From assembly GCA_963693285.1 (NCBI GenBank), contig OY848918.1, positions 17,192,035-17,256,034 on the forward strand: a DNA stretch of 64,000 nucleotides, given 5' to 3'. This stretch comes from Xestospongia muta. Its lineage: Eukaryota > Porifera > Demospongiae > Haplosclerida > Petrosiidae. Below the pieces are notes generated by a model. It was not told the origin of the DNA. It saw only the letters and a list, made by a program, of their open reading frames with translations, and did no database searches. Within the stretch, counting starts at the first letter, position 1. Each line of letters opens with the position of its first letter. The position numbers were made by a program, and so were the translations under genes. Positions 20,201 to 54,524 of the stretch are shown here, piece after piece.

Positions 20201-22067
20201 TAGTTCACATTTAATATATTCTCGAAATTCCAATGATTGATGTATAATTATAATGTTTGCTATAGTTAGTGATTACTATTTTACTTAATTATTACAGTAC
20301 AATGTAAATGAGCGTAGTCTATTGAACAATGTACATTACACAAGAATTGTAGTCTTCATGTAGATATTATGTAACAGACAAACACAAACATAACATTGAA
20401 ATATAAAGACTTGACAATATCAACCACTAAACACATAAATTAAACAAGTAACTTGTTTTATAAGATCCTCATAGCTTAACTTTGTACTAAATTATAATCA
20501 TAATATGAGGTACTAATAAGTTTAAATTACAATATTAAACACTAACCTGATCTAGTGCATGTATATTGGACTTGTTTTTAATTAGCATTTCTGCTATTTC
20601 AGCATTAGATGCCCAGTGTAATGCTGTTCGAACAAACTGAAAAAGAAGAAATATAAAGTTAATACTAGATAACTAACAGTATACTATACATTGTACATAT
20701 ACAAGTACTATCATAACATGTGGTCAATATCAGTGAAGGTTCATGTTGTTTATTCTCTCTCTTATGAGTATTATTAGTAGCTCATATCATGTCATGTCAA
20801 TGTAGTACATTGAACAAACACTATATTATGAGCAACAAAACTAACATGTTTAGGAAAGACTACTAATACATTTGCAAATATATGGTAAAAGCACATCTGA
20901 CTTAATGATGATAAAACCTCTTTACACACCCTATTATTAAATATAGACCATAAAACATTTTGATACAATATTTTAATAAATATCTGAGATGTAAAATTTA
21001 CAGTTCTTTTAATACAATTGTTAAATTAATTCTCAAAATGTTTTACATAAGTCTGTTATGTTAGTGGCTTTGCTGACTATACTGTTTATGAGTATATAAA
21101 ACATAAAATTATAATGTTGTTTCTCAAATGAAATGTTGGAATACAAAACAACTAAGGCCACTCAATAAAAATAGACTATAGTTAGCTATGCAAACAACTT
21201 GTTGATATAATCATAATCAATGCTTCTGAAGGGTATTTAACAAACTATATTTATCAGAGCTTTATCAGCATTCTGGTAGATTGTAAATATATGAGAACAG
21301 TGAGTGAATAAATGTGTGCGTGGTATAAAATCTTAAAATGATTCCAGAAAATGCATTTTATAAATGCTACATAGAAAGCAAATTCATATAAATAATGTCT
21401 TCAAAAGATGTGTTATATGATAGATATGAACTGGCTCTGTTAGAATTATTCAGTAACATTGTTATTAGATCAACAAATGTACACATCATGTCAGTAATAT
21501 TAACACTTTATTATTATCAGGAGATGACACAGAAAAGGAAACAAACTCCTACACTATTGATTAAAATCACACAAGAATTTGTGATAATAAATTTAGACCA
21601 TCCCATGTATTATAGCTCAACCAACATCATACTATAATGATGATACAATGTGTAGTAATGTGATAATTATTGGATCTTAGACTTATTTATAAAAACACAC
21701 TGTATATGAAAAGTAGGCTTTACTGTTGAGATATATACTTAAATATTGAGAGCTAGTAACTTACCGCGTATGTATGATAGTTTACATCAGCACCTCGTTC
21801 AATAGTAGATTTGACTTCTTCAATGTTTCCATTATCAGCTGCCCATAACAATTGTTCATTCTATTATAAAGACAACATGTATCATGTAGTGTAGTATAGT
21901 GAGTATACAGACAGATCAGCCCTTATAACTAAAGGACCATCTTTTAGAAAGATATTCTGTCTATACAATAACACTGATATGTGAGTTTAGTTAGTATCAC
22001 AGTGATATATAGGGATAATGACATAGTAATAGAAAGATTATAGACTTACTAGGTCTCTCTGAGACAT
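4018..22067 (-). CDS. Gene A: ankyrin repeat / Roc-COR-like GTPase / death-domain protein (13 exons, complete)
   Basis: Exons, 5' to 3' on the minus strand: 22067-22050, 21860-21765, 20636-20547, 15210-15112, 11882-11784, 7998-7900, 7571-7481, 7426-5748, 5701-5248, 5193-5131, 5036-4965, 4462-4400, 4295-4018. All junctions are GT-AG and the phases agree, giving 1066 codons plus TAA. The start is MSQRDL; an in-frame TAA lies seven codons upstream, so no kinase domain precedes it. Residues ~5-195 are ankyrin repeats, with a 99-bp exon each for repeats 4-6. The P-loop GPPAVGKT is at ~222-229, followed by a ~130-residue Ser/Lys-rich insertion, then the Walker-B-like DSGGQ and GTYEDK. A COR-like region follows (RWYVLE...), then an acidic linker, and a death domain fills the last ~90 residues. 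Family knowledge: ankyrin-Roc-COR-death is the order found in DAPK1 minus its kinase, which suggests cytoplasmic signalling or cell-death scaffolding. Ligand and partner cannot be read from the sequence. Confidence 0.88.
5748..7426 (-). other. Gene A exon 8: P-loop GTPase and first part of COR-like region
   Basis: This 1679-bp exon is the largest of gene A and carries the whole nucleotide-binding module. Visible motifs are GPPAVGKTS (G1), YVLDSGGQPQF (G3) and IIGTYEDK (G4-like, with Thr-Tyr-Glu-Asp in place of NKxD). A long low-complexity insertion sits between G1 and G3; such insertions are seen in divergent Roc proteins. It ends at a codon boundary before a 46-bp intron (5702-5747). Reading through that intron would shift the frame, so it must be spliced. 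Gene B has no intron at the same place. Confidence 0.85.
8033..9110. repeat. Gene A intron segment with a diverged copy at 38787-39920
   Basis: Collinear similarity to 38787-39920 extends over ~1.1 kb, including the start (gatgattacattt), gcatactattac, gtgtctatg/gtgtctagg and the end (atggcctgctttaaaacc). The gene A copy starts just upstream of exon 6, so the other copy is a fragment of an additional gene-family duplicate. Confidence 0.8.
8193..8254. repeat. (CATA)n/(TA)n microsatellite in a gene A intron
   Basis: About seven ACAT units run directly into ~20 TA units. A shorter (TA)n lies at 8904-8924. Confidence 0.95.
10340..11780. repeat. Segmental duplication, gene A intron copy (partner 60655-61965)
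   Basis: This intronic stretch aligns nearly end to end with 60655-61965 in gene B. Shared landmarks include the text around 10370 (atagttagtgctagggttat) and the last 130 bp before the exon. It shows that A and B arose by duplication of a genomic block rather than by retrocopy. Divergence is moderate, with many point changes and small indels. Confidence 0.85.
13491..13600 (+). pseudogene. Ty3/gypsy-type integrase C-terminal (GPY/F-like) remnant
   Basis: The frame reads a G-P-E-stop-V-E-G-I-V start, then FLVKMANGQVWKRHLHQL. This fits the end of Ty3/gypsy integrases, where a Trp (here TAG) and a final RH..QL motif are typical. Only ~35 codons are recognisable and there is a stop, so this is a relic with no flanking LTR visible. 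An almost identical copy lies at 16844-16955 as part of the tandem duplication. Confidence 0.6.
14071..14883 (-). mobile_element. Non-autonomous DNA element (MITE family 1, copy 1)
   Basis: An 11-bp inverted repeat AACCTCGCTGT (14089-14099) / ACAGCGAGGTT (14873-14883) bounds the element. Outside the left repeat is a small hairpin ggcactaaagtgcc. The interior has a (CA)n tract and no convincing gene. The tandem-duplicate copy at 15.4-17.7 kb lacks it (empty site around 17417), which fixes the ends to within a few bases. The target duplication is short and AT-rich (aat or atga) and cannot be resolved. Copy 2 lies at 35435-36602 in opposite orientation. The superfamily is not assigned. Confidence 0.8.
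16844..16955 (+). pseudogene. Ty3/gypsy-type integrase C-terminal remnant (duplicate)
   Basis: Second copy of the relic at 13491-13600, carried along in the tandem duplication. It has the same TAG in place of the conserved Trp, so the inactivation preceded the duplication. Confidence 0.6.
17649..17695 (-). pseudogene. Truncated copy of gene A ankyrin exon 4
   Basis: On the minus strand this encodes the end of an ankyrin repeat (VLIKSGASLDAINN) followed by a good GTAAGTG donor, identical to exon 4. No acceptor lies at its upstream edge. It is a by-product of the tandem duplication breakpoint. Confidence 0.85.
19391..19764 (+). mobile_element. Internally deleted hAT transposon with 8-bp target duplication
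   Basis: The terminal inverted repeat is TAGTGCTGCC ... GGCAGCACTA, flanked on both sides by the 8-bp direct repeat AACTGGAT (19383-19390 and 19765-19772). The paralogous site near 63916 in gene B is empty. TAG-start TIRs and an 8-bp duplication are hAT hallmarks. At 19524-19658 (plus strand) the frame VATSVPSEHLFSATGNV followed by ITEKRN matches the hAT C-terminal dimerisation domain. The element is therefore a deletion derivative keeping the 3' end of a transposase gene. The rest is AT-rich with repeated atatcgatat motifs. Confidence 0.88.
19524..19658 (+). pseudogene. hAT transposase C-terminal dimerisation remnant
   Basis: About 45 codons ending at TGA. The motif SVPSEHLFSATGNVITEKR corresponds to the conserved S-x-x-x-E-R-x-F-S-x-x-G block of hAT transposases, with R replaced by H. 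No upstream catalytic part is left in the 374-bp element. Confidence 0.75.
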
Positions 22068-22120
22068 TTTGAAAAGTGTTGGTCCTTACTCCTTAGCTAT
22101 CACTGTTCTTATGTCAGGTG

Positions 22121-24960
22121 TCTATAGATAATATAGGAAGCAGGTTACATAGATTGTAATAGCTATATACTACATTGGAATGAAGAAAAGTCTACTAACT
22201 AAATCAACTATCACCTAATTATAGTAAGATAGAATATACTGTCTGTCTACTAACTACTACTATATGTAATAGATATACACTCACACTATGTATGTACTGT
22301 ACACTATATGATATCATTGGATACTAATAATATTCAACGATTTAGTAGTAGAATAGAATATAGAATGATATTCTGTCTATTTAGTCAATAATGTTGTGAA
22401 ACTAATATAATCACAGTTATGTTCCAACAATGACAATTTAGGATCTATAAACATAGTTAGTCTTGCATTGTTGGCCACTTTGTATAGAGCAAATGTGGTC
22501 TGGAGATAGCAACTCCAAACAAGAGATTAGTATTAATTTCACTTTTCAGAGCGCTAGCAGAGTATCAATGTTCTCAATAGCTACATATGCCATCTTGTGT
22601 TGGTTAAAATGTCATGAAACTAATATAATAACAGTTATGTTCAAAGGATGAGAATTTGGGTCTAGAGATTAGTTGGTCTTGTATTGTTGCCCACTTTGTA
22701 TCTTTAAAGTGAAAGTGATCTGATGATACAACTCAAGAGATTAGTATTAATTTCACATTAAAGAACAATGCATCAATATTCACAATAGCTACCTAAGTAC
22801 AGTGAACTCAATATCATAAACAACTACACAATTGCATGACTAAATAATATTGTTGATAGAAATTCTGGTTCAGTTTAACAGCACATTGGGTTTTCCATTC
22901 ATTTAGTGAGGTCTGTTACTTGATAATTATAAAAGTAATGTCAATAGTAATATTGTATCACAACATTGTATTCTTTCATTGGGTTTTTTGGAAGAGGAGA
23001 TTGTAACAAAAATTATTCTCTTTCAATTAGAATTATTCTGACAGTATCATATTCAAACAACAATCATGTATTTTATATTATTTCTAATTATATGTCAATA
23101 AGTCTATTTAACCAGATCTCCATAAATGAAAATTCATTTCATTAACTTATTGTCATATACTTCTACAATATACTACCAGTATCATTCATTATAAAGGACA
23201 CATGTATCAATGTGACACTAACACGTTAAGTATATTCTTAGATAATCAAAGTTCTAACAAGACATGAATACTTCACATAATCATATATATTAAACTGATG
23301 GTAATAGTGTTTTTAGCTGTAACACAATTATATATACAATGGATCTATCATTCTATAGTTATACTTAAATGACAGATGGATCATTTGAAAGGAATTTAAT
23401 TTTCTGATTTGACAATTAGTTAACAATATATACATCAATACATGTTTCCTTATATTTATACAGAATGGATAATTTTTAGATTATTACTAAGGAATGCAAT
23501 CAGTATTTATAATTACAAATACAATACACTCCCTCAATACTGTACAGTTGTTAACACTAGAGTATTCTATTGTACTATATAACAGTACCTGAGTACATAT
23601 AATAATATGTATGATATATAACAAATGATCTAATCACAGAGTGTCAATGGAAACAAGAAGTACTGAGGAAACACTTATATGATAAATACTATCTTCTATT
23701 TTAATCAGTGGTATGGGCTGGGTCATTCACACTCATCGTCTTCTTAATGAATTGGTATCAATACATAGGAAGTGTGTAAACACTGGACTGGATAGTTTAA
23801 CTGAACTGTCCTTAAATTATTTATGTTGGAGAAGGTTGCTGTCAGAATCATCCTATGCCACAAGTTTCATTATATAGTTTGTATGACTTCTCAATTTTAC
23901 ATCCTTGACTTTTTTGTTAGTACAATAAAATAAAATTTATAAATAATTAAAGACTGAATACATTCAAAACCAAACTATCCTATAGACTGTATAATGATGT
24001 ATGAGTAAATAATACAACATTGAGTAAAAGTAACACAAAATCTTTTGCCTTACAAAGTGGTCATTCTTTAAAACTGCATACATTCTTTCCAGTTAATGAT
24101 GATGTTTTAGAATGGAGTTAATGTTTTGAATTGTTTCCTTTGAAAAGTTGACAACACCACATATTTAGTGTAGTTGTGTGGATAAGTGTACATAGTTCCT
24201 TCAACTGACTACTATTCCTAATATCAAGGTGTCTATAGATAATACAGGAAGTAGGTGACATAGTTAGATAGTAAACTACTATATTGGAATGAGAAAACTC
24301 TACTAACTAAATCAACTGTAACCTAATTATAGTAAGATAGAGTATACACTCTGTCTACTAACTATATACTACCACATGTGATACACTCACACTATGTATG
24401 TACTGTACACTATATGATCATATATAATTAACAGCTGCTTAGTAATGTCTGACACATGATAACCATAAAAGTAATGCCAATAGTCATTATTGTCTCATAA
24501 CATTACATTCTTTCATTAGATTCATTGGAAAAGGAGATTGTAACAGAAATTCTTTTCATTCTCTAGAAATTAATTTACAGTATCATCTTTACACATCAAT
24601 CATGTATTTATCATTATTTCAAACTATATATATGTCAATAACTGTATAGATCTCTATAAATGAAAAGATGTCTCATTAATTTATTCTAATGTCCTTATAC
24701 TTCTACAGTATAACTTCTGTATCATTCATTACAAAGGATAGATATATCAATGTGCACACTAGTTCTTACAATGTCATCTTAGAAATTGAAAGCTCTAACA
24801 AGACATCAGTACTACATATAAAGATGGACATTATTAAGTTGATTGTTATGGTGTTTTAATAGCTGAAACAAAATAATTTGTAGGATATATCTATCATTCT
24901 ATAGTTATATTTTAATGAAAGATGGATTATTTAAAAAGAATTTAATTTTGCATTTGACAG
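22121..24960. repeat. Diverged duplications upstream of gene A
   Basis: The block 22121-22330 recurs at 24228-24430 (shared tgtctatagataata.aggaag). The block ~22900-23400 recurs at ~24440-24960. Within the first half, 22384-22560 is repeated at 22610-22770. All are diverged and none has a coding signature. The rest of 22068-25950 shows no gene on either strand; it would contain the gene A promoter, but I see no clear core element. Confidence 0.7.
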
Positions 24961-25956
24961 GTGATAATGAGGTATTCGAATAAGACAGGATGCAGGATGA
25001 AGAGGAAGTGATGTCTATGAAGTATGATTGTGCTAGAATAATAGAATTGAATCTGTGACTGTTTATTATGAGATGTATTAACACCTTGTATTTTAATACT
25101 GATCAGAACCTTCCAATTAAAAAAATTGTAATGATATCTCTTTTATAATGTACATTCCTAAATAAGTCGTTGTAGTATTGTGTAGCATTCACATTTGACA
25201 TGTGTTAACAATATAATACGATATGTGTCATGAATTCGCCTGACACCAAAAGTTATTGCATTTTAGTAGTACAAACTAAAACCATAGATACTATTTGACT
25301 GGATGCTAATATAAAGTACATGTATAAACGTCATTTTCGTTTGTCTCTATGTGTCTATGGGTAAAGATGGCAAATGTGGTAAGTATATGGTGTTACTTTA
25401 GTAATTATTGGATACTGTAGAAGCTTTTGTAGTCATTTACGATATGACATAGAGGCGTGGCTCAATGATCGGACACGTTGGTGTTTTTACTGTTTTTAAA
25501 TACACAAAGCGTTCGAAGCTGACTTCCGACACCAGCTTCGAGTGCCCCAATCTGTCATATAGTTATTGCAAAAAATATACTGAAAAAGAAATCTCTTTGC
25601 ACAATGTACAAGCATATTTTCTGTACACTCGAGATAATGATTAAACGGACATTCTTATGTAGATTCGAACGATGACCATATCTTGATAACAATTGTAGCT
25701 TGAACGTTTTCTCTGCTTTTGAACATTATATAATATGTTAGGAATTAACTGTCAAAATTTGGAGAAATATCTACAAGCAGTTCTGAATATACATCTCTTT
25801 GAAAACATAAACTCATTGACTAATAAACGGACATTTAAGAGAAATCCTTTTTTAAAGTAGGTGATAACTGTTTGTTAATTATTAACTCAAATGACAATCA
25901 CAAACACTATGCATGAAGATATTAATTTTACTGCAAAAAAGTCTAGTAGTTAATTA

Positions 25957-26111
25957 TTACATGTCACACATAAAACAAACAAAATTTAGTGATTTTTCTT
26001 TCTTGATCCCAACACATACCATGTGGTACCACCGGAAACATTTTTCACATTCCACCCAATTAGTCGCCTTAGTGTGAAAACATAAATTATTAGAACATGC
26101 TGATAGTTTTT
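25957..26111 (-). other. T1 terminal exon: PHD-type zinc finger
   Basis: The exon encodes 51 residues after the last repeat. Cys and His positions (ACSNNLC, then H, then WVECEKC, RWYHMVC, and CFMC at the end) fit a C4HC3-like PHD finger with the usual W-(Y/F)-H-x-x-C core. Such fingers commonly read histone tails. Confidence 0.65.
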
Positions 26112-26159
26112 CTGTAATGAAATACATGAATTGTGTTATTATATTGTGAATATTTCATA

Positions 26160-27720
26160 CTGGTTGTCAGGTTATTCTTTGACTGTTCTAGTGTACTTTC
26201 TAAAATGGCGAGCCACTAATCTATAGGGTAAATTATAATATAATATCACATACCATTATCACTGAGTCCATTCTTGTGAAATTCACTGAGTCCTGTCTCT
26301 TCTTCACTTCTCTTGCTAGCATTTCTGGTACATCTCTTCCTACCTGTAACAAAGATAATTAACTCAAAAATACTTCAATATATAAACACTACACATACTG
26401 GAAATTTGAGAATTTTTAGGCAATTTCTTTGACTGTTCCAGTGTACTTTCTAAAATGGCAAGCCAGTAATCTAGGGTAAATTATAATATAATATCACATA
26501 CCATTATCGCTGAGTCCATTCTTGTCAAATTCACTGAGTCTTGTCTCTTCTTCACTTCTCTTGCTAGCACTTCTGGTACATCTCTTCCTCCCTGTAACAA
26601 AGATAATTAACTCAAAAATACTTCAATATATAAATACTACACATACTGGAAATTTGAGAATTTTTGGGTAATGTCTTTGACTGTTCTAGTGTACTTTCTA
26701 AAATGGCAAGCCACTAATCTAGGTTAATTTATAATATAATATCACATACCATTATCACTGAGTCCATTCTTGTCAAATTCACTGAGTCTTGTCTCTTCTT
26801 CACTTCTCTTGCTAGCATTTCTGGTACATCTCTTCCTCCCTGTAGCAAAGATAATTAACTCAAAAATACTTCAATATATAAACACTACACATACTGGAAA
26901 TTTGAGAATTTTTGGGCAATGTCTTTGACTGTTCCAGTGTACTTTCTAAAATGGCAAGCCAGTAATCTAGGGTAAATTATAATATAATAAATATCACATA
27001 CCATTATCGCTGAGTCCATTCTTGTCAAATTCACTGAGTCTTGTCTCTTCTTCACTTCTCTTGCTAGCACTTCTGGTACATCTCTTCCTCCCTGTAACAA
27101 AGATAATTAACTAAAAAATACTTCAATATATAAACACTACACATACTGGAAATTTGAGAATTTTTGGGTAATGTCTTTGACTGTTCCAGTGTACTTTCTA
27201 AAATGGCAAGCCAGTAATCTAGGGTAAATTATAATATAATAAATATCACATACCATTATCGCTGAGTCCATTCTTGTCAAATTCACTAAGTCTTGTCTCT
27301 TCTTCACTTCTCTTGCTAGCACTTCTGGTACATCTCTTCCTCCCTGTAACAAAGATAATTAACTCAAAAATACTTCAATATATAAACACTACACATACTG
27401 GAAATTTGAGAATTTTTGGGTAATGTCTTTGACTGTTCTAGTGTACTTTCTAAAATGGCAAGCCACTAATCTAGGTTAATTTATAATATAATATCACATA
27501 CCATTATCACTGAGTCCATTCTTGTCAAATTCACTGAGTCTTGTCTCTTCTTCACTTCTCTTGCTAGCATTTCTGGTACATCTCTTCCTCCCTGTAGCAA
27601 AGATAATTAACTCAAAAATACTTCAATATATAAACACTACATGCACGTACTGGAAATTTGAAAATTTTTGGGTGATTGTTCTAGTGTACTTTTTGAAATA
27701 GCAAGCCATTAATTCAAAGT
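26160..27720 (-). repeat. T1 tandem exon array: six ~250-bp units each with one 90-bp exon
   Basis: Units of 248-252 bp each hold a 90-bp exon, phase 1 at both ends, with introns of 158-162 bp. Each exon encodes RKRCTRSASKRSEEET followed by RLSEFDKNGLSDN, a basic half then an acidic half. Two unit subtypes alternate (atcactg/atttctgg versus atcgctg/acttctgg) in the order a-b-b-a-b-a. Units 27502 and 26750 are almost identical, which suggests unequal exchange. Because exon phases are symmetric, any number can be gained, lost or skipped without shifting the frame. Confidence 0.88.
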
Positions 27721-30539
27721 ATAATCAACCTAAGGCTGTATGACTTACTATTCTCATCCACTTCACTGAGACCAATGTCTCCACCACTGGATTTACATGC
27801 TGTAGTGTCTAAAGATAATTCTTCAGGGTGGAATATTTTTTTCCATTTTCCGTATCTGATGTCAGGTAGATCATAACCATTCTCATACCTCCTACAAAAC
27901 CGACTGTGCTCTTCTCCTGTAAATTCAAATTTTGATGTACTTTCTTCACTTTCTTTTTTTAATTTTTTTTGTCTCTCTTTTTCAGCTTTTTCAACTGCTC
28001 TTTTAAGTTTTCTCTCCTCTACTTCCTTCTTTTTTTGTTCTCGTTCCATTGCCTTCTTTTCTCGTTGTTGCTTTCTAAGATCTTTTGCTTTTGATTCATC
28101 TGCTTTCTTAATTTCTTTTTCTCTTATCAACTTAAGATTTTCAGAACTTGTTAAAACACGAGCACTGTGGTTTGTTTTCTTCTCATTACTTGGTAGCTGA
28201 GGTAAAGTAAGAAAATTATGAAGAATAGATGGCTGAACTTTTGTAATGTAATCTTCATCTTCAGAAAATTTACCATAGTAACCACAGGTACTGTCTTCAC
28301 TACAAGTGTTTTCTTCACAATAATCAATGCTTTCACTATCGGAAGTACAGGTACGAGGATGAGACTTGGATGGGCTATACAGAGGAAGAAACAGTCCCAT
28401 CTTGGAGGCTATCATATCTATTTTCCCATCCTCCTCAAGTTGCAAGTAACGTAATATTGCATATCTGTTGAGGGGATATATACCAGTGGATCTAAACCCA
28501 GCAACAATATTGGCTGGTGTCATTGCCTTTGTCCAGGCTCGACTAAAAATTTCGGTAAAATTAAATCTATTAATGGCTTTCCCAGGATTACAGGACATGT
28601 AGAGATGACATTCATTATTGTATGCCTTTTTTAAGGAGCTAAAACACGACCTGTCCAGTGGTTGACACAAATGAGTTGTATGAGGTGGCAAGCAAAATAA
28701 GATGATCTGATTTGCAGCAGCTGTCTTGATCAATTAAGGTTGGTAATGTGAAGAATGTCCATCCAGGAGTAACAAGATGGGTCGCTGTGGAGGAATGTGA
28801 AGTAAGAAGTGATTAGTAAACCATTCCTGAAACAATTCGGAATCTATCCATCCATTTTTAGACAACCCATATGCAGTACCTGGGATTTCTCCTGTTGTGA
28901 AATTAGGTTTGAGTTTTTTCCGATCAAAAATTATCATAGGAGGCAAAAGGTAACCAGAAGCACTGCATGCTGACAAAACAGTAATTTGGGCTTTATCACT
29001 ACTAGTAATACAGGATATATCTCTCTGACCTTGTACTCCAATTATTTTGCCAGGTTTATGTTGCAAAGAGAACCCACTCTCATCACAGTTAAAAATCAAC
29101 ATTGGTGATTCAAGCAAATTATTAGACTTCAATGTTTCTTCAAGCAAGTCAAAATAACGATTTATGACATCTGGGTTAGCTGCAATAGCTCTACAATATG
29201 CTAGCTTGGATCCACATCTTAATCGTAGCTTTGGATGCCGCTTCACAAATGAGCCCCACCAACCAGTGGTGACATTGACATCTTCAACTTCACATTGACG
29301 CTTCTTTGCTAGTGCTGCTCTGACAATACAAAGAACTTGTTCCTTTGTGCGAGCGAAGCCAATTTTAGCTGAGCCTACCAAAAATGTTACTAGTTCTTCT
29401 TCTTCAATGTCATTTAAGTATCTAGGAGGTCCACTATGAGCACCAAAAGAGACATTACCAGACACTCGATCCCATAATGTTGACTTTGGCACATTATACA
29501 TTTCAGCAGCTTTTCTAAGAGTAAATCGTCCTTTAGATACATCCTTTGCTGCTTTACGTAACTGGGTCTCACTCCACCGCTTGTAGTGCCTATCTCTTGG
29601 CTTTTTTCCTCCAGATAACCTAGGCTATTAAAGAAAATGCAACTATAACATAATAAATCATATATAAACAAAGAAAAATAGACTCATGTCGGGGGCACTT
29701 AAAAAAGGACTTGGCTGCACTATGTTTTCTAACAAATAATTGTCTCAGCACCCATTTAAAGCACATAAACATTGTGGTTTGCAATAAGTCACTTGTAAAA
29801 AGGTTTTTCACAATCTTATACTAATTGTCATAGTTTTGTATATAGATACAGAGACTCCTAGTTATGTATCAAAGATAGAAAGACTCTAGCTCATTGTAGT
29901 AGACTACTGCATTCTGAAGATTCAATAAGACCAGATGAAACCGATAAGTAAGCAGATGTGTCTATTTGTATGCTTGAAGGTATATATCTCTTCTCTACTT
30001 TATAACAAAGACTGTACATTGCACCAATGACTACATGTGATATACCTATATACCACAAACTTTTAGAGCCTATGATCATATCATGAATTTGTGACTATAA
30101 CATCATACCTACAGTATAATGCATGGTCTATGACATATTTTAGTTTATGTGATGACCTTCTTTTCCTCAAAAGTATTAAAAACAATATTATTGTCATGTA
30201 GTTAATTGATTATCATTTAAAAATTTATTTCATTCAGATTATTGTAATTCAAGTATCTATCACTTGTTTACCTACTTGCAGTAAAGTTAGTCATAAAGTC
30301 AAGCAGCTATTAAGCCTCAGTACAACACTCTTATTCTTAAAAAAGTGAACTGACTCTGTTATTACAGACATATATATATATTTACTAATGACTAAAATGG
30401 CCAGGGTTGACTAAAATATTGCTAACACATATATAGCTCAAGCCATTAACGTATTCAAGCTTCCCCATAGTCTCCCACTTGGACATCTATACATTATCAC
30501 CTATTACCATGTTTGATTGTGTCCACAATAGTCCAGCTC

Positions 30540-30800
30540 ACGTTTAGACTTCAGGTTGTGTTGTCCGCTAAAACATACCACGTGTCCGCAAATACATTTA
30601 AGTCCGTACAAGCACCAAAAACGGAGCTCATTCACGACACGGAGTTTGGTTAGGAAATTATGCAAGGAAAGTGTATTCATTGAGCATAACCAAGAGCCAC
30701 ATTATACAGAAGCAATAAGCTGTCTTCAAATTTTTAGAAGAAAAAGTGTCCGAAAATGGATTTGTCCGTCCATTGATTTTCGACTCTATAGATAAAGGTT
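30540..30800. other. GTCCG-rich region upstream of T1, possible transposon subterminal sequence
   Basis: Five GTCCG motifs occur in ~200 bp (about 30565, 30585, 30602, 30744, 30763). On the other side of T1, CGGAC occurs near 25471, 25646 and 25828. T2 termini also carry CGGAC repeats. This could be a transposase-binding region or the T1 promoter. I could not find a matching inverted repeat bounding T1. Confidence 0.35.
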
Positions 30801-31319
30801 TTAGAAAATATAATAAAAAATATTTTTAAGCTTAAGTTTTGTCACAGATATGTTTTAATATAAAATATTAGTTAAAAATAATGGTGTGACCAATTTTTCT
30901 CAACCACTTATATTGAGAGAAAGTTCACAACCACCTCCATGAATTAGTTTTGCCTTTGTTGTTGTAAATGGAAGTATAGCAGAGATATATATTTAATAAA
31001 ACTTGAGTGCCAATTTTATGGCCAATTTATTGCCAGAAGTATACTTTTCTTGAAAGTTTTATTCAGTGTATTGCTAATGTGTAATAGTGTGCATTAATCA
31101 AAAAAAATTAGGTTGTAGGTGTTCCAAATAAGCAAAAAATGTATTCCCAAAATGTCATCATTTATTGTAGATAATGGAGTGTGATATCACATAACTTTTA
31201 CTTTTTAGAAAACTGAGAGACTGAGGAGAAAAAAGCACTAAGGATGTGCTCCTAAAAGACACTTGTGTACAATATCAATGGCTTACAATCCTCTTGTCAC
31301 TGTATGTTATATGTATGTG

Positions 31320-31641
31320 TTGCTATGATAATTTTGTCATGTTTCAATTCAGAAACCATTTCAAGCTATAGCATGTGCAGAGGAAGTAAAATCATTTTCT
31401 CAAAAGTGGATAGTGAGTGCTACAGAATGAGGAAGATATATCTTTATTCACAGTAGTACTGAGAGATACCCTCCCTGATATTGAGCCATTTGTCATAACA
31501 AGATCATTAGTATTAAGTAAATGTCTCTCTTGGGAACTATTTATTTATGGAAAAGCTGCTTATCATCTACCAGCTTTTTCATGTATTGGTGAAGTACTGA
31601 ATTTGGAATTATTTAAGAAACTCATGGGAATTATAATGTAA
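31320..31641 (+). pseudogene. Unidentified possible coding relic
   Basis: From 31417 a frame of ~70 codons reads LRDTLPDIEPFVITRSLVLS and so on, with protein-like composition. Just upstream, another frame (EEVKSFSQKWIVSATE) ends at a TGA and would join by a frameshift. I recognise no family. It is probably a decayed transposon gene. Confidence 0.25.
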
Positions 31642-32066
31642 CAGCAAGATATGCACTGAGAACACAGATGAAAAATATATGTCATATCCTTGATACTAAA
31701 TAGAGTTTAATCCGACTCTCTTAGCAAGGACAAAACATCAATACATACTTATAGAAAGGTCTAGAACACAGTACACACAAAGGAATAGACAATTGGACAT
31801 AATGACTAAGATAGGATATATATACTTATCAAGTCACAATTCAATGAAGTTCATAATTCTTCCACATTAGTCACTTTATTTCATGCTTTGAGATCACTCA
31901 GTATATTCTATGTTTAGGAATACGTTATATTACCTATTTGTGGTTTAAAACGCATGTAGACATCCAGTTTAGCCTAGTTTAATTTCACATCCATATCTAT
32001 GCTAAAACTGACCAATCACGTTTGGGGGGTGGTTTAATTTGAGCACGTAGAACTTTCAATGTGGAC

Positions 32067-32344
32067 ATGACAGAGCCTTCTTCTTTCAAGTCTGGACGTT
32101 GTGATCCCCTTGAAGAGACGCCTACTAGGAATAGTTGTAGAAAAAGCGTTAGAAATACGCCTCCATGGAAAAAGACGAAGTGCCAAATTAAAGAAACTCG
32201 GGACAAGAATACATTTCTTCATCAAAAAATAGTAAGTAGATAATGTTCTTATCATTGGTCATCACTGCTCCTTTTACTGTATTAGCTAATGATAATAATA
32301 AGTCATGAAAAATTTCTTTCCTTTAGGTATCAGCCAAAAAATGA
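32067..32344 (+). CDS. Possible two-exon small basic protein (60 aa)
   Basis: Exon 32067-32231 starts at ATG (MTEPSSFKSG...) and ends at a GTAAGT donor on a codon boundary. A pyrimidine-rich acceptor (tttctttcctttag) precedes 32327, and the joined frame ends with VSAKK and TGA at 32344. The protein would be Lys/Arg/Ser/Thr-rich with no known domain. A CCAAT motif (gaccaatcacg) lies ~55 bp upstream of the ATG. Length and composition alone do not prove a gene; expression evidence would be needed. Confidence 0.35.
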
Positions 32345-32682
32345 ATAACACATTGTGAATGCTCTGTGAAATTATTTGAGAAAATTCTGAGGATCAAGCA
32401 AAGAGCCTCTTTGAAAGGTTTTGGAGGTTATGTGGCTTTAGTGTTCAAAAGAATACATCTGTGATTGTGTAAAAATTCTGAAATAAAAAACCTATACATC
32501 CTATGAGGTTCATCATCTAGTTGAACTTGACGTAAAATGTACTTCATCAGTATTGGCTCAATCTTGAACAAAATATGCAAGACTGCTTTCTTACATATCC
32601 TTGCAGTGTCCAATGGTAGATTAGATTGTGCTCTTCAAGTCCAATCTAAAACTAGAGGTTCACCGCACCCAACCAATGTGGG

Positions 32683-32685
<3 letters not shown>

Positions 32686-32734
<49 letters not shown>
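32686..32734. repeat. (CT)n microsatellite
   Basis: About 24 uninterrupted CT units. Confidence 0.97.
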
Positions 32735-32736
<2 letters not shown>

Positions 32737-33947
32737 CTCACACATGCCATAACTCAATCAATATATCTTTTTTAGACCTAAAAGTGATACTTCTAAAACC
32801 TGTGACTTATTAAAAGTTAAGGTTAATGGAGCAATGTATACTTCTATGTTAGTACACCTAAAAAGTGACAGGAACTGCATCATTGAAGAGCTGGACAGGC
32901 TTATGAACAGTTGAAAGATGATACGGCTTTGTCAAAACATTTAATTTACAACTGTCATTACCTATTCCTGTCCTTTCAACCAATATAGTGCCTTATTAAC
33001 ATCAACTCTGGAGATACAATTTAGGAGTACATAGTTGTAAGACTGGTATTGGATACATACTTGTTTAGCATAAAGGAATAGCAACAAGAGGTTCATGAGA
33101 AGTTGAGTCCAGTATTCTCAACTATATTAGGATAACAATACTACTGCCAAACATCCCATAATGTGCAATGATTCAAGTGGGAGGCAAAATCTCAACTTTA
33201 ATTTCGTCTCTCTCTCTGGCTACACATTGTCAGTAATGACAGTAGTCTTTGACTAGTATTAACCAAAATGTGGTAAAATATTTATACCTTCCCAATGATT
33301 GAGATTTTGGCAGTATTGTAACAGCTAGATGTAAGACTCAGCATGCTTTGTTTAACAGGATTTGAGTAATCTTATATCAAAGACAAGACATCAAAGTCTG
33401 ATCAATGAACATCAATTGTAATGTCAACACCAAGAAAGAAAATGTATAGAATGGCTGAGAATGCAATGAATAAAAAAGATGATCCTCTAGCCTTTCAATA
33501 TCATTACACAGTAAATTATTTGGAAGAATGAAAGATAGTTGATTTTAGAAGAAGAGGAAAACCTAGACCTCCAAACATTGTTAGGATTAAGCCATTACCA
33601 CTCTACACTAGTCCTCAAAAGACTGAAAAGAAAAATTAAAAGTACAAAACAAAGAAATTGTTTTAGTCTTTTAGAGTTTATACCTCTAATTTATCATCCT
33701 TTTATCGTGGACTTGTAAAATTAATGGAGAGGATTTGAAGACTGAAACAATAGTGTCAATGATGATGATGATGTTCTTTAAACGCATCAAAAATTTTAAA
33801 ATAATATTATATGAAAACTTGATCAATAACCATTTGTGGTTACAGTCAAGTATTCTTGTGGCTTTAGCTTTTATTGACATTTTATAGTAAACAAAACACT
33901 TCAAAGAGTTATTAATTACAAGTAACATCATATGGTTAGACTACTGT

Positions 33948-33950
<3 letters not shown>

Positions 33951-34041
<91 letters not shown>

Positions 34042-46526: not shown

Positions 46527-46588
46527 GACAAAAAAAATCTACGCTTGTTAGATATTAGAACAAGACTATTCTAATTAAAAAATAATTA

Positions 46589-46972
46589 GAGTAACAGACC
46601 AATAGTCGTACGGACCGATATTCGGACGTTTATATCTACTAAATGGTAAATGCTATAAAGCTGATTCTGCAGACACTGGTAGGTGCTTACGTGTACTACT
46701 GGTGTACAAAATATTAGCTTGCAAAAATACAGTATACAAGTGCTGCAGCTCGAAGATCAACATTGTACGAATACCGCGGTTTTCGTACAGTTGAACCAGT
46801 GTTCGGACATCTACCTGGGAAATAGCTGGGAATTGGAGACAAGCAATGAAACGTGAGATTCTAGTTCATCAATGATTCCTCTTTCAAACCTCCAAGCCGG
46901 AGCCCTGCACTTCTTGTATGACCGCGATTACAAGTGTGAGAGTGCAAGTGGGTCACGTGACCAGTATTCGGA
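46589..46972 (+). repeat. T2 left terminal inverted repeat
   Basis: Pairs with 54039-54431. It contains cggaccg, ttcggacg, tgttcggac and attcggat motifs, and a CACGTG site (tcacgtgacc) at the inner end. T2 transcription presumably starts in or just after it: an acceptor (tttatttacag) lies at 47066, suggesting a 5' untranslated intron. Confidence 0.92.
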
Positions 46973-47071
46973 TGCACGTGGAAGATAGAAACTCATACAA
47001 TTTAAGGTAGCCTGTAGCCTGGTTGACTGGTTCAGTCTGGTTGACTTGTTTTTCTTTATTTACAGATCTAG

Positions 47072-50000
47072 ATGTATTCTCACCCACCCATTTCAAGAAG
47101 AGTCGTAAAAGCCGCGCATAGGTCTACTTCGAGTAAGGAAACCTCATCCTGCTCTTTGCCACGGCGTGGTACTACATACAGGAGATGGAACAGCGAGAGT
47201 ATAGAAAAAGCAGTTAAGGAAGTCGAGTTGGGAATGCCAATCAGACAAGCTTGTGAAATCTTCTCAGTCCCAAAATCTTCACTCCATGATAGAGTGAGTG
47301 GCAAAGTTGATTGTAAGGCAAGATCAGGTCCAACCCCTTATTTAAGTTTTGAAGAAGAGGAATTAGCGAGTTTCTTAATCCAAACTGCTAAGATTGGGTA
47401 TCTGCATACCAAGAAACAAGTACTGGCTTTAGTTCAAAGAATTGTTGAGGGAAAGGGAATTGAAACAACACTATCAAATGGATGGTGGGAGAGATTTCTG
47501 GGAAGACATCCCAAATTAACTCTGAAGATGGCTGTACCGTTATCTTATGGAAGGGCAATTGCAACCAATCCAGATGTACTCAATCGTTACTTTGATATGC
47601 TTGAGGAAACTTTAGAAACCAATGGCATACTTGATGATCCTTCTCGCATTTTCAACTGCAACGAAACTGGGCTTCCACTTAGCCCAAAATGTTTAAAGAT
47701 AGTGGACAAGATAGGTTCTAGAAATCCTAGCCACATAATTGGAAATACTAAAGCACAAATAACTGCTTTGGCTTGCTCGTGTGCAGCTGGTTACGTTATA
47801 CCTCCCTTCATCATTTTTAACAGAAAATCTTTAAGTCAGGAGTTAACTAGAGGAGAAATCCCTGGGACACTCTACGGCCTGTCTGACAGTGGGTGGATGT
47901 CAAGGCATCTCTTTTTCCATTGGTTCACAAAGCATTTCCTACTATATGCCCCACAAGTTCGCCCACTGCTTCTACTACTGGATGGGCACTCTACTCACTA
48001 TTGTCATGATACTATCAATATGGCTGCTCAAAATCAAGTTATTATTTTCACCCTCCCACCTCATACAACACATGTGATGCAGCCACTGGACAGAGGATGC
48101 TTTGCACCATTAAAAGTATCATGGAGACAGATTTGTCACCAATTCATTGCTAAAAACCCTGGAAAGACAGTATCTCAGTATGACTTTTGTCAACTTTTCT
48201 CTCAGGCTTGGTCGAAAGCTTTTTCAATAGAAAACATCGTATCAAGTTTTAGAGTCACTGGAGTGTACTCACTTGATCGGTCAGTTACTAAAGCACATGT
48301 GTTGCAGCCAAATGATAATGAAGACTTTGCTCTATTCAAACCCAAAGCTCTTGCTCAAAAAACAGGCCTAGCTTATATTCCATTATATAGCCCTGCTCTT
48401 GGACGTTCAAAGTCCCATTGTCAAGCTGTTACTAGTACTCCACGTTGGTCAATGGATGATCATGAGCTCCTCAGCAATGGAACGTTTCTTAGTTCAGATA
48501 GATCTATGGTCTTGGAAAGGTCGTTGTCTGATCCAGACTTGCACGAGAGATCTTTTCGAGAAGGTTCGTTACCAACTCGATCTGCATCAACTATTGGCAA
48601 TTTTTTAGTTCCTGCATTTTTACCACCAAGTAAAGCCACTACAAAATCTGCAGGAAAAGTTCTTACCAGCCGTCATCATCTCCAATTTCTGTGGGAACGA
48701 CAGAGACAGAAAGAAATAGAAGCTCTACAAAAGGATGAGCGGAAAAGAGTTAGAGAAGATAAGGCAAAAGCCAAAAGAGAACAGTCCCAAACAAAGAGAA
48801 GTGGAAGGAATAAGAAGAAAGGTGTGTCAAATTAAAATTAATGTACGTTTATTGTTTAGTTGTAGTAGGGTTCTCCAAGTCTGAGGCTGATGATTTAGAA
48901 ATGGCATTTCCAAGACAAACCAGGAATAAGAAGAAAGGTGTGTCAAATTAAAATTACTGTACCTTTATTGTTTAGTTGTAGTAGGGTTCTCCAAGTCTGA
49001 GGCTGATGATTTAGAAATGGCACTTCCAAGACAAACCAGGAATAAGAAGAAAGGTGTGTCAAATTAAAATTACTGTACCTTTATTGTTTAGTTGTAGTAG
49101 GGTTCTCCAAGTCTGAGGCTGATGATTTAGAAATGACATTTCCAAGACAAACCAGGAATAAGAAGAAAGGTGTGTCAAATAAAAATTACTGTACCTTTAT
49201 TGTTTAGTTGTAGGAGAGTTGTCTTAGTCTGAGGCTGATAATTTAGAAATGGCACTTCCAAGACAAACCAGGAATAAGAAGAAAGGTGTGTCAAATTAAA
49301 ATTATTGTACCTTTATTGTTTAGTTGTAGGAGAATTCTCCAAGTCTGAGGCTGATGATTTAGAAATGGCAATTCCAAGACAAACCAGGAATAAGAAGAAA
49401 GGTGTGTCAAATTAAAATTACTGTACCTTTATTGTTTAGTTGTAGTAGGGTTCTCCAAGTCTGAGGCTAATCATTTAGAGATGGCACTTCTAAGACAAAC
49501 CAGGAATAAGAAGAAAGGTGTGTCAAATTAAAATTACTTTACCTTTTTTGTTTAGTTGTAGGAGAATTCTCCAAGTCTGAGGCTGATAATTTAGAAATGG
49601 CACTTCCAAGACAAACCAGGAATAAGAAGAAAGGTGTGTCAAATTAAAATTAATGTACCTTTATTGTTTAGTTGTAGGAGAATTCTCCAAGTCTGAGGCT
49701 AATGATTTAGAGATGGCACTTCCAAGACAAACCAGGAATAAGAAGAAAGGTGTGTCAAATAAAAATTACTGTACCTTTATTGTTTAGTTGTAGTAGGGTT
49801 CTCCAAGTCTGAGGCTGATGATTTAGAGATGGCACTTCTAAGACAAACCAGGAATAAGAAGAAAGGTGTGTCAAATTAAAATTACTGTACCTTTATTGTT
49901 TAGTTGTAGTAGGGTTCTCCAAGTCTGAGGCTGATGATTTAGAAATGGCACTTCCAAGACAAACCAGGAATAAGAAGAAAGGTGTGTCAAATTAAAATTA

Positions 50001-53000
50001 CTGTACCTTTATTGTTTAGTTGTAGTAGGGTTCTCCAAGTCTGAGGCTGATGATTTAGAAATGACATTTCCAAGACAAACCAGGAATAAGAAGAAAGGTG
50101 TGTCAAATTAAAATTACTGTACCTTTATTGTTTAGTTGTAGGAGAGTTGTCTTAGTCTGAGGCTGATAATTTAGAAATGGCACTTCCAAGACAAACCAGG
50201 AATAAGAAGAAAGGTGTGTCAAATTAAAATTATTGTACCTTTATTGTTTAGTTGTAGGAGAATTCTCCAAGTCTGAGGCTGATGATTTAGAAATGGCAAT
50301 TCCAAGACAAACCAGGAATAAGAAGAAAGGTGTGTCAAATTAAAATTACTGTACCTTTATTGTTTAGTTGTAGTAGGGTTCTCCAAGTCTGAGGCTAATC
50401 ATTTAGAGATGGCACTTCTAAGACAAACCAGGAATAAGAAGAAAGGTGTGTCAAATTAAAATTACTGTACCTTTTTTGTTTAGTTGTAGGAGAATTCTCC
50501 AAGTCTGAGGCTGATAATTTAGAAATGGCACTTCCAAGACAAACCAGGAATAAGAAGAAAGGTGTGTCAAATTAAAATTAATGTACCTTTATTGTTTAGT
50601 TGTAGGAGAATTCTCCAAGTCTGAGGCTAATGATTTAGAGATGGCACTTCCAAGACAAACCAGGAATAAGAAGAAAGGTGTGTCAAATAAAAATTACTGT
50701 ACCTTTATTGTTTAGTTGTAGTAGGGTTCTCCAAGTCTGAGGCTGATGATTTAGAGATGGCACTTCTAAGACAAACCAGGAATAAGAAGAAAGGTGTGTC
50801 AAATTAAAATTACTGTACCTTTATTGTTTAGTTGTAGTAGGGTTCTCCAAGTCTGAGGCTAATCATTTAGAGATGGCACTTCTAAGACAAACCAGGAATA
50901 AGAAGAAAGGTGTGTCAAATTAAAATTACTGTACCTTTTTTGTTTAGTTGTAGGAGAATTCTCCAAGTCTGAGGCTGATAATTTAGAAATGGCACTTCCA
51001 AGACAAACCAGGAATAAGAAGAAAGGTGTGTCAAATTAAAATTACTGTACCTTTATTGTTTAGTTGTACGAGAATTCTCCAAGTCTGAGGCTAATGATTT
51101 AGAGATGGCACTTCCAAGACAAACCAGGAATAAGAAGAAAGGTGTGTCAAATTAAAATTACTGTACCTTTATTGTTTAGTTGTAGTAGGGTTCTCCAAGT
51201 CTGAGGCTGATGATTTAGAGATGGCACTTCTAAGACAAACCAGGAATAAGAAGAAAGGTGTGTCAAATTAAAATTACTGTACCTTTATTGTTTAGTTGTA
51301 GTAGGGTTCTCCAAGTCTGAGGCTGATAATTTAGAAATGGCACTTCCAAGACAAACCAGGAATAAGAAGAAAGGTGTGTTTAAATTAAAATTACTGTACA
51401 TTTATTGTTTAGTTGTAGTAGATTTGTCCGAGTCTGAGGCTGATGATTTAGAGATGGCACTTCCAAGACAAACCAGGAATAAGAAGAAAGGTGTGTCAAA
51501 TTAAAATTACTGTACCTTTATTGTTTAGTTGTAGGAGAATTCTCCAAGTCTGAGGCTAATGATTTAGAGATGGCACTTCCAAGACAAACCAGGAATAAGA
51601 AAAAAGGTGTGTCAAATTAAAATTACTGTACCTTTATTGTTTAGTTGTAGGAGAATTCTCCAAGTCTGAGGCTGATAATTTAGAAATGGCACTTCCAAGA
51701 CAAACCAGGAATAAGAAGAAAGGTGTGTCAATTTAAAATTACTGTACCTTTATTGTTTAGTTGTGTAGAGTTGTCCGAGTCTGAGGCTAATGATTTAGAA
51801 ATGGCACTTCCAAGACAAACCAGGAATAAGAAGAAAGGTGTGTTTAAATTAAAATTACTGTACATTTATTGTTTAGTTGTAGTAGATTTGTCCGAGTCTG
51901 AGGCTGATGATTTAGAGATGGCACTTCCAAGACAAACCAGGAATAAGAAGAAAGGTGTGTCAAATTAAAATTACTGTACATTTATTGTTTAGTTGTAGTA
52001 GGGTTCTCCAAGTCTGAGGCTAATGATTTAGAGATGGCACTTCCAAGACAAACCAGGAATAAGAAGAAAGGTGTGTCAAATAAAAATTACTGTACCTTTA
52101 TTGTTTAGTTGTAGTAGGGTTCTCCAAGTCTGAGGCTGATAATTTAGAAATGGCACTTCCAAGACAAACCAGGAATAAGAAGAAAGGTGTGTCAAATTAA
52201 AATTATTGTACCTTTATTGTTTAGTTGTAGGAGAATTTTCCAAGTCTGAGGCTGATGATTTAGAAATGGCACTTCCAAGAAAACCAAAAACAGGTATGTC
52301 AAATTGAGATTACTTTACCTTTATTACCATACATGTACTTTGAGAGTTCTTCGACCCTGAGCCTGTTGATGTTGAAGTTTTAGAGACTTGTCAAACTGGA
52401 AAAAATATTAAAGGTGTGTCAAACTCAGACATGGGGCAAGCATTTTCAAGTGCTTAATTGAAGTAATTGAAGCACAAAATATAGAAGTAATTGAAGCACA
52501 AATTCAAACATCACATAACTGTTTTAAGCACAAGCAGGAGCACTTTGATTAAGCAAATTCATTAATAATCACCTTGTTACATAAAAATGAACATTATGAA
52601 ACGTATTATCACTAACCTGGCACCTTTGGGCCTAAAACTTACTAAAACGCTCTGTACATGTACAGACCTTTGTGCTTAATATATAATACTTTAATATAAA
52701 GTAGCACAAGTGCTTATACTTAAGAAAAGTATCAAAGCACCTGAAAGCACTTGCTTAAAGGGCTTTCAAGCACAAGCACTCAAGTGCTTGCCCCATGTCT
52801 GCTACATGTACATGTATATTATGTCATTTTTGTTTACAGGTAAAGCAGATTCCTGGTGGATAAAAGATCTGAATCTTTATATAGCAGACAAGAATCATCT
52901 TGAAAGTGGTTCTGAAGTTTCCGACAATGTGATCAATGCTGCCCACACTCTTCTAAGTCAACAATTTCCACACATACATGGTTTTCAGAATACATTATTG

Positions 53001-53957
53001 GGTTATCGTCTCAAGTTTAAAGTTGTTCCTAGGATACCCTCTGTTCAGATACTTCACACAGGTACAGTGATGTGTGTTAATAAGTTAAGCAGCAAGGTTA
53101 ATAATACCTTATCAGAACAAAAAAGTGTTTAGAAATTTCCACAGCAAAAAAATATGTCTGGTAATAATCCTTATTGGTTGTAGTAATACAAAGAGACTGC
53201 TATTAATTCACCTTGTCAAGTTGTTACATACTTACTGTAAGGATAAAATTTTTGAGGGCTTTTAAATTTTGTTGTTTTCATGGGTGATTTATAATCCATG
53301 AAAATATTGACCCAGCATTTGTGCATGTGCCTACATGTAGGTGCAATGAAAATTAAATACCCTGATATTTAATGAATAAAGGATTATTCTTCATGTAAAC
53401 TCTTTATTGTAGGATCTAATCACTGGATCTGTACATGTTCCCAAAGACCTGGAGTTGTCCAGATTATGGACAGTTTGGCATTATTCTATACACTTAACAA
53501 GCCCACTCTTCTTCAAGTTTCACAAATATACTCCTATTCCTCAAAATCTTCTCTGAAAATACAGACAATGTCTGTACAACAGCAGGAAGGGAGCAGGGAC
53601 TGTGGCCTCTTTTCTATTGCTATGGCAATGGAAGTGTGTTGTGGAAACAATCCTGAATGTGCTAGTTTTCATCAAGAAGTAATGTGTGATCATCTAATTG
53701 ATTGTTTTGAAAGAAGAAAGTTGTCTCTGTTCCCAAAGAAATTGCACAACCAGCCGGAATGTATACCTCGACCTTCGAGACATCATCACATCATTGACCT
53801 ATATTGTTACTGTAAAATGCCTGAAGACTACGACGAGATGATGATCTCTTGTGATGTGTGTGGGCAGTGGTTTCACTGTTCCTGTGTTCATGTTACTCCA
53901 AGTAAAATTTCTGATGTTTGGGAGTGTAAATCATGTTGCAAGATCTCCAAGAAATAG
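47072..53957 (+). CDS. T2 gene: pogo-like transposase - tandem exon repeats - Ulp1/C48-type protease - PHD finger
   Basis: Exon 1 (47072-48821) starts at ATG just after an in-frame TAG and encodes 583 residues: Psq-type helix-turn-helix (~35-80), CENPB-like DNA-binding segment (~95-155, GWWERFLGRHPKL), DDE domain (~190-350) with D304 (LLLDGHSTH) and D340 (QPLDRGCF), then a Lys/Arg-rich tail. The first catalytic Asp is Asn197 (NCNETG). The frame continues in phase 1 through 29 copies of a 72-bp exon (48866-52192), shorter exons 52231-52293 and 52345-52413, then 52840-53061 and 53413-53957. The last two encode a C48-like protease with HW (His), MDS (Asp) and EGSRDCG (Cys), and a C4HC3 PHD finger. 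The protein could reach ~1550-1580 aa if every array exon were used. Two array exons contain TAG, so they must be skipped for a full-length product. Likely nuclear; the protease function in transposition is unknown. Confidence 0.8.
48822..52293 (+). repeat. T2 tandem exon array: ~30 units of ~116 bp (72-bp exon + 44-bp intron)
   Basis: Each unit is a GTGTGT...TTGTAG mini-intron followed by a 72-bp exon that adds 24 residues of the type EFSKSEADDLEMALPRQ plus TRNKKK. Twenty-nine good copies follow exon 1, whose own end (RNKKK) is the same sequence. The final unit (52231-52293) is degenerate. Phase 1 at both ends makes each exon a removable cassette. TAG codons occur at 49225-49227 and 50153-50155. 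The unit near 51070 has TAC instead of TAG at its acceptor, but an in-frame TAG lies 6 bp upstream. A block of eight units is duplicated (see findings). Confidence 0.92.
52426..52801. mobile_element. MITE family 3 (~375 bp) nested in a T2 intron
   Basis: The ends cagacatggggcaagca (52427) and tgcttgccccatgtctg (~52784-52800) form a 17-bp perfect inverted repeat, extended by tcaagtgctt / aagcacttg-type motifs. The interior repeats AAGCAC/GTGCTT many times. No coding potential. Target duplication not clear. It lengthens the intron 52414-52839 without touching splice sites. Confidence 0.78.
52840..53957 (+). other. T2 3' exons: Ulp1/C48-like cysteine protease and PHD finger
   Basis: Exon 52840-53061 begins KADSWWIKDLNLYIAD, and exon 53413-53957 continues SNHWICTC, VVQIMDSL, QQQEGSRDCGLFSIA. 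The order H-W ... D ... Q-x-D-C-G matches Ulp1/SENP catalytic His, Asp, Gln and Cys. After ~60 residues, YCYCKM, SCDVCGQWFHCSC and WECKSC give a canonical PHD finger. TAG stops the frame at 53955-53957. Ulp1-like proteases remove SUMO or related modifiers; whether this one acts on such a substrate is inference. Confidence 0.78.
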
Positions 53958-54038
53958 AATAATTTTGTCTTAGTAATTAAGGACCAGTTGGAAAATTATT
54001 TATAACTCATTATGCACCACCTTCCATAATTGTTTACG

Positions 54039-54431
54039 TCCGAATACTGGTCACGTGATCTACTTGCACTCTCACACTTGTAATAGCGGTCATACAAGAA
54101 GTGCAGGGCTCCGGCTTGGAGGTTTGAAAGAGGAATCATTGATGAACTAGAATCTCACTTTTCATTGCTTGTCTCCAATTCCCAGCTATTTCCCAGGTAG
54201 ATGTCCGAACACTGGTTCAACTGTACGAAAACCGCGGTATTCGTACAATGTTGATCTTCGAGCTGCAGCACTTGTATATTGTATTTTTGCAAGCTAATAT
54301 TTTGTACACAGTAAGCACCTACAGTACAGGTAAGCACCTACCAGTGTCTGCAGAATCAGCTTTATAGCATTCACCATTTAGTAGATATAAACGTCCGAAA
54401 ATCGGTCCGTACGACTATTGGTCTGTTACTC
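54039..54431 (-). repeat. T2 right terminal inverted repeat
   Basis: Inverted copy of 46589-46972, differing by scattered substitutions and an ~8-bp expansion (a repeated gtaagcacctac unit at ~54310-54345). It lies 82 bp after the stop codon of the T2 gene. Confidence 0.92.
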
Positions 54432-54524
54432 TATTATTGATGAATGATGTTAATTATTTTCGCTTAAATAGAATACATTCTGGCATCGAACACTACAGCT
54501 GCTTACTGTTGATTGTGAACGACA

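Follow-up and report, generated by a model that had tools for sequence, protein, structure and literature searches.

A pogo-type transposon of the sponge Xestospongia muta with a mini-exon array, an Ulp1-like protease and a PHD finger in order behind its transposase

The stretch of DNA analyzed here, called the window, is 64,000 nucleotides of contig OY848918.1 (assembly GCA_963693285.1) from the sponge Xestospongia muta, and its subject is a single TA-flanked element of 7.8 kb at window positions 46589-54431. We read it, with a probability of roughly 0.72, as a pogo-type cut-and-paste transposon whose transposase is joined by splicing, through a variable number of charged 24-amino-acid repeats, to an Ulp1-like isopeptidase and a PHD finger. 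The architecture is real and is found in multiple copies and multiple families, and the order in the DNA of transposase, mini-exon array, protease where there is one, and PHD finger is well supported. An earlier note on this DNA had proposed an undescribed animal lineage of pogo-like elements carrying a SUMO-type protease and a PHD finger, and that proposal is borne out by the many copies, by three families in this genome, and by a protein prediction from the sponge Amphimedon queenslandica. The parts of the element are as follows.

46589-46988, plus strand: left terminal inverted repeat (TIR), about 390 bp, beginning GAGTAACAGACC right after TA
47072-48821, plus strand: exon 1, pogo-type transposase with HTH_psq and DDE_1, phase-1 donor; the unspliced open reading frame (ORF) continues to 48835, 587 amino acids
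48806-52286, plus strand: 116-bp tandem array, 30 copies, the unit being an intron of about 44 nucleotides and a phase-1 exon of about 72 nucleotides (24-amino-acid acidic/basic repeat)
48866-52293, plus strand: array exons from the splice model, 27 of 72 nucleotides and a final one of 63; two have an in-frame stop, and two units lack the acceptor sought
52345-52413, plus strand: 69-nucleotide phase-1 exon 3' of the array, from the splice model
52840-53061, plus strand: first protease exon, Ulp1-like N-terminal part, no methionine, phase 1 on both sides
53413-53957, plus strand: last exon, remainder of the Ulp1-like protease (His, Asp, Gln, Cys) and PHD finger, from Pfam, the splice model, and alignment
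54039-54431, minus strand: right TIR, then TA, from the inverted-repeat search

The inverted-repeat search of the window pairs the two ends of the element in 2 segments, 46587-46704 with 54316-54433 (118 bp, 95% complementary) and 46702-46972 with 54039-54309 (271 bp, 98% complementary), and TA adjoins both ends, in agreement with the TIRs of about 390 bp and the TA target duplication claimed at first. In the aligned flanks of other copies, TA stands beside the terminus in 16 of 17 left rows and in all 13 right rows, the 17th left row, from L055, having been cut at the wrong place, and the terminus itself is GAGTAACAGACC or differs from it by 1-2 bases.

The transposase ORF, 47072-48835, scores 82.1 bits against the Pfam family DDE_1 (PF03184, cut-off 22) and 27.5 bits against HTH_psq (cut-off 20.4), but the CENPB-type helix-turn-helix family HTH_Tnp_Tc5 reaches 15.8 bits and stays under its cut-off of 22.2, so that the Psq and DDE parts of the transposase as first described hold and the CENPB part falls short of its cut-off. 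By a hand count on the ORF, the second and third catalytic residues are separated by 35 residues, and the third is Asp. The pogo superfamily as described in PMC7386202 (Passer, Tigger, pogoR, Lemi, Mover, Fot) shares the HTH_psq-type domain, DDE_1, the DD35D spacing, and the TA target; the available text of that paper gives catalytic spacings of DD29-56D, elements of 1.20-5.20 kb, and transposases of 300-977 amino acids, as a described range and not a definition. The 587-amino-acid ORF is within the range for transposases, and the longer modeled fusion is outside it. As to element length, the window element has 7.8 kb, several copies have 3.6-4.9 kb between TIR matches, and one has 24.8 kb. 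A Pfam search of the window element at E ≤ 0.1 did not find the integrase core expected of a Ginger1-type, Gypsy-integrase-like transposase, and found DDE_1 instead. Judged by sequence, then, the element carries the tested marks of the pogo superfamily and not that of Ginger1.

Matches in the same genome number at least 40 scored for the TIR, at least 150 for the protease-PHD exon (many of them partial or distant), and at least 92 for the transposase, all three counts being lower bounds. Twenty regions were fetched, and they hold 13 elements with TIR matches at both ends, one of them spread across 2 regions. All 13 have transposase and protease-PHD sequence between the TIRs, with L044 having a partial transposase only and L046 being without most of the protease. 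The others are more fragmentary: L052 combines one TIR with a transposase piece and shows, over 6.4 kb, no protease match; at L055, L056, and L057 a single TIR is accompanied by protease-PHD, with no transposase match in the fetched stretch; L058 adds transposase pieces to one TIR and protease-PHD; and L053 covers the right half of a long element located on C9. That element (L061, L062, and L053 together, C9:4292925-4317746) is the 24.8-kb one, a member of the same family as the window element, here called family 1, with about 176 array units as estimated from its length. L056 and L057 (C10:2940074 and 2955580) are 2 right halves, each with TIR and protease-PHD, that have an identical flank. 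Seven loci, L042-L048 at C1:20.7-22.2 Mb, have one common flank and therefore look like duplicates of one insertion together with its surroundings. Comparison of flanks leaves at least 8 different insertion sites, window included, that hold both transposase and protease-PHD.

The association can also be counted over the whole genome, using 66 of the 92 transposase rows and 80 of the 150 protease rows after fragments and weak rows were dropped. A protease match lies on the same strand, up to 26 kb downstream, at 22 of 23 transposase loci of at least 70% identity (6 of the 22 being the C1 duplicates), at 3 of 3 loci of 53-69%, and at 1 of 38 below 53%. The corresponding upstream controls are 3, 0, and 0, the 3 being neighboring C1 copies, and among the dropped protease rows, checked by eye, none lies downstream of a protease-less transposase. 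Of the refuting outcomes named in the earlier note, one, other copies of the element without the protease/PHD part, is thus seen as the exception, with protease-PHD sequence in 13 of 13 elements with 2 TIRs and the protease at 22 of 23 close loci. Single PHD and Ulp domains are ordinary modules of host genes, and one might suppose that the protease-PHD exons are a host gene copy that happens to sit inside one transposon. We give that supposition almost no weight, given that protease-PHD is found inside copies at 8 or more insertion sites and in the same order and strand in 3 families; chance association or capture of a host gene was considered as a candidate and is ruled out by the other copies.

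In the protease, the residues His, Asp, Gln, and Cys follow in Ulp1 order (H78, D94, Q132, and C138 in the first row of alignment A1) and are invariant in the 4 rows, with a spacing that we take to be Ulp1-like. Peptidase_C48 scores 16.6 bits on the window last exon by itself, against a cut-off of 20.7; in relatives, it scores 27.2 bits on P0133 and has no match at E ≤ 1 on P0121 and P0126. A relative of the protease has a fold like NEDP1, SENP, and Ulp1, which places it with the Ulp1 fold. The PHD finger on the last exon passes the PF00628 cut-off (26.8 bits vs. 24), resembles that of PHF2, and has PHF2, Spp1, and PHF8 among its top Protein Data Bank matches. The C4HC3 pattern is present, and the Y/F, Met, and Trp positions, which presumably form the aromatic cage, are kept in the 4 alignment rows. 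The finger is predicted to be of the type that reads histone H3 trimethylated at lysine 4 (H3K4me3). A C48-like protease with His, Asp, and Cys in order and a C4HC3 PHD finger had been described from the window, and both descriptions survive, the first on residue order and the second on the Pfam score.

A protein database search with the protease part of the fused query only gave 154 candidates, none at E ≤ 0.01, and a profile search gave 143 proteins; alignment A2 covers 41 of the 120 listed profile matches. Within the genome, some protease-PHD matches of 33-40% identity, at C11:2553748-2556798, C2:11725143-11744106, and C10:3146242, have frames of 201-266 amino acids (some with one stop) and are not beside any pogo transposase match. 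They may belong to transposons of another kind, or to host genes, in which this pair of domains also occurs.

Between transposase and protease lies the array, found by the tandem-repeat search as 30 copies of 116 bp at 94% matches. Exon 1 ends in phase 1, and the splice model recovers 29 more exons before the protease, all of them in phase 1 and multiples of 3; every join, including those of the protease exons, is also in phase 1. The array exons share one phase and have lengths divisible by 3, so any combination of them can be skipped with the frame kept. A continuous phase-1 frame through about 30 exons had been claimed, and the phase part of this stands throughout the 29 recovered exons, but there are in-frame stops in 2 array exons (49214-49285 and 50142-50213) and 2 units without the acceptor, with the consequence that a transcript using every exon would not be open in the window copy. 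The number of array units varies across copies from about 3 to about 176.

Two further families in this genome, represented by L059 and L060, have the same order of transposase, array, protease, and PHD finger on the same strand. L059 is at 66% identity in the transposase and 61% in the protease; its array has 17 units of 112 bp, with 16 parsed exons of 72 nucleotides, open and in phase 1, and by eye one unit without acceptor AG, one without donor GT, and an earlier further exon with a stop. L060 is at about 40% in both transposase and protease; its 101-bp array yields 4 recovered exons of 54 nucleotides, and its protease intron sits in the same place, but a stop in the first protease exon and a frame break near the end of the protease mean that this copy is broken. 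A fourth kind, L063, has 17 recovered phase-1 exons of 60 or 63 nucleotides, in a fetched part of the element that does not include its end. Another related family is represented in the window itself:

25957-29624, minus strand: second pogo copy, related family; transposase with one stop, six 90-nucleotide phase-1 exons, PHD last exon 26111-25957, no protease match

The array period in this copy is 248-252 bp, its last exon matches PF00628 with E = 3.3 × 10−6, and no inverted arms of 40 or more nucleotides were found around it in 21000-34000. In all, 5 pogo families here have phase-1 mini-exon arrays, with periods of 116, 112, 101, 102, and about 250 bp, and resemblance in array sequence is shown between the 116- and 112-bp arrays only. 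Within 10 kb of the 38 transposase loci that are below 53% identity, a match to the second element's PHD exon lies downstream at 20, and none lies upstream or on the opposite strand (49 of 52 PHD rows counted, 3 overlapping duplicates left out). Those 20 are among the 37 loci without a protease match, L060 being the 38th, with a protease, and outside the 20. The lineage with exon array and PHD finger is therefore broader than the earlier note saw, and includes pogo families without a nearby protease match.

Outside X. muta, 8 of the 120 listed transposase relatives carry an organism name, and these are A. queenslandica predictions. LOC109581489 of that species has 6 isoform records of 1117-1370 amino acids with 8 to 18 repeats, mostly of 24-28 amino acids, and in the 2 isoforms examined, transposase, repeats, Ulp-like domain, and PHD finger are in one predicted chain. 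The order is that of the window element, whereas the repeat sequences differ. Identity to the window is 50% for protease-PHD and 54% for the transposase, and the fusion's best long match in the window genome is 57%, with partial matches up to 64%. This fusion is already in the databases, as unnamed predicted proteins. LOC109582507, also from A. queenslandica, has a transposase and a PHD-like end below cut-off (E = 0.0031, 17.9 bits), and in the predicted protein P0036 a single ORF spans the transposase and continues into the first protease exon (41% over 70 residues, E = 2 × 10−19, single comparison).

The transposase tree, drawn without an outgroup or named pogo reference transposases, has 85 rows, 81 of them taken from the 120 listed transposase relatives. 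It groups the window element with L059 and A. queenslandica in a clade that includes neither L060 nor P0036. With 7 of the 85 rows labeled for architecture, a single change of state is enough, which leaves room for an old protease with later loss and also for repeated gain.

Several findings weigh against the spliced fusion. Splicing in the source species is predicted from the DNA sequence. Between families 1 and 2, the array introns are 73% identical and the array exons 54%. Of the possible changes within family-1 arrays, variants are seen for 14 of 44 that are synonymous, 34 of 159 that are nonsynonymous, and 25 of 96 that lie in introns, indicating weak selection, and stops are found in 15 of 187 array units (8 of 72 distinct exons). 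A frame-open exon also appears in 11-17% of randomized single units in the 4 families tried, by which one family alone would be weak evidence for a coding array. In the window transposase, the first catalytic Asp is replaced by Asn in the motif FNCNETG; FNCDETG is found in 8 of 13 other loci examined, the other 5 giving no motif match. For the A. queenslandica fusion, Pfam names the transposase and the PHD finger and not the Ulp-like part, which was recognized by alignment, and that genome has a model of a standalone Ulp-PHD protein, LOC109589556.

The findings on selection, the stops, and the wide range in unit number all suit a version in which transposase and protease-PHD are indeed spliced together but the array is a noncoding minisatellite in one skipped intron. 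Purifying selection was tried as proof of coding, within family 1 and between families, and found little support, the introns being more conserved. The comparison between families 1 and 2 gives pN/pS, the ratio of nonsynonymous to synonymous change, as 0.26 for the transposase (synonymous sites saturated), 0.29 for the protease, and 0.52 for the PHD finger (58 codons), and their array exon peptides outscore all 2000 shuffles. Set against the minisatellite are the 5 families with differing arrays and periods, whose recovered exons all have lengths divisible by 3 and for the most part stay open in phase 1, and the A. queenslandica protein models that contain such repeats. Several families with differing units are stronger evidence for coding arrays, though their ancestry is shared, and we judge the noncoding version unlikely.

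A different division would make 2 separate genes, a transposase stopping at 48835 and a protease-PHD gene whose promoter would lie within the array or beyond it. In favor of this, the transposase ORF needs no splicing to be complete, array exons contain an in-phase ATG (LEMALP), and a standalone Ulp-PHD protein is among the A. queenslandica predictions. The first protease exon, though, is without a methionine in families 1 and 2 and so has to be joined to sequence farther upstream that supplies a start; A. queenslandica also has predictions of single fused proteins, and P0036 is one ORF across the join. We regard the 2-gene arrangement as improbable and prefer the spliced fusion.

The nearest known design is Ginger1-9_HM of Hydra (PMC2836005), likewise an animal transposon of the cut-and-paste kind, with an Ulp1 protease and a PHD finger at the C-terminus of its transposase. 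It differs in its Gypsy-integrase-like transposase, its length of 3.8 kb, and its 2 introns, and the word "tandem" is absent from the available text of that paper. Mutator elements with Ulp1 domains, cited there, also carry a protease but have a Mutator-like transposase, and oomycete Cryptons with a C48 (Ulp1) peptidase (PMC3212892) use a tyrosine recombinase, with PHD absent from the accessible text. On the pogo side, the words Ulp1, PHD, protease, SUMO, and exon are absent from the available text of PMC7386202, and the window element is longer than the elements there. CENPB, POGK, and POGZ are host fusions of pogo with other domains, unlike the window element. No pogo element with Ulp1 and PHD was found in the literature searched, which mostly excluded subscription journals and contained no Repbase reports. 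As far as these sources go, Ulp1 plus PHD on a transposase is already known from Ginger1, and the combination with pogo and a mini-exon array is the new part.

If the spliced fusion is made, one transcript could yield more than one product. Because the ORF read through the first donor ends at 48835, a transcript that keeps the first intron would stop translation 4 codons past the donor and give the transposase alone, while splicing of the first donor to a later acceptor could preserve an open frame and yield the fusion, the length of its linker being set by the number of array exons used. The transposase would bind the TIRs, the PHD finger may dock the complex on H3K4-methylated, open chromatin, and the protease might remove SUMO or a SUMO-like modifier, acting on the transposase itself, on repair factors, or on those silencing factors at the element that depend on SUMO. 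Across yeast, plants, and animals, SUMO favors silent chromatin, and it is involved in argonaute-guided silencing in C. elegans, according to the part of PMC8131101 available. The wider proposal, which we hold tentatively and at somewhat less than even odds, is that of an ancient sponge pogo lineage in which frame-neutral phase-1 mini-exon arrays produce transposase isoforms with varied linkers and a PHD finger, joined in several of the families by a SUMO-type protease; in this view the array would evolve fast and be tunable, and the protease would blunt SUMO-dependent silencing.

The combination of protease and PHD finger could help the element to cope with host chromatin while moving, and, taken with Ginger1, it suggests that unrelated transposases acquired the same Ulp1-PHD pair. 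The tandem mini-exon array would offer a natural system for the splicing of dozens of near-identical exons and for repeat expansion inside a gene. If the reading is true, a transposase that carries a SUMO-type protease together with a predicted H3K4me3 reader would give a direct handle on how transposons may counter silencing and choose chromatin.

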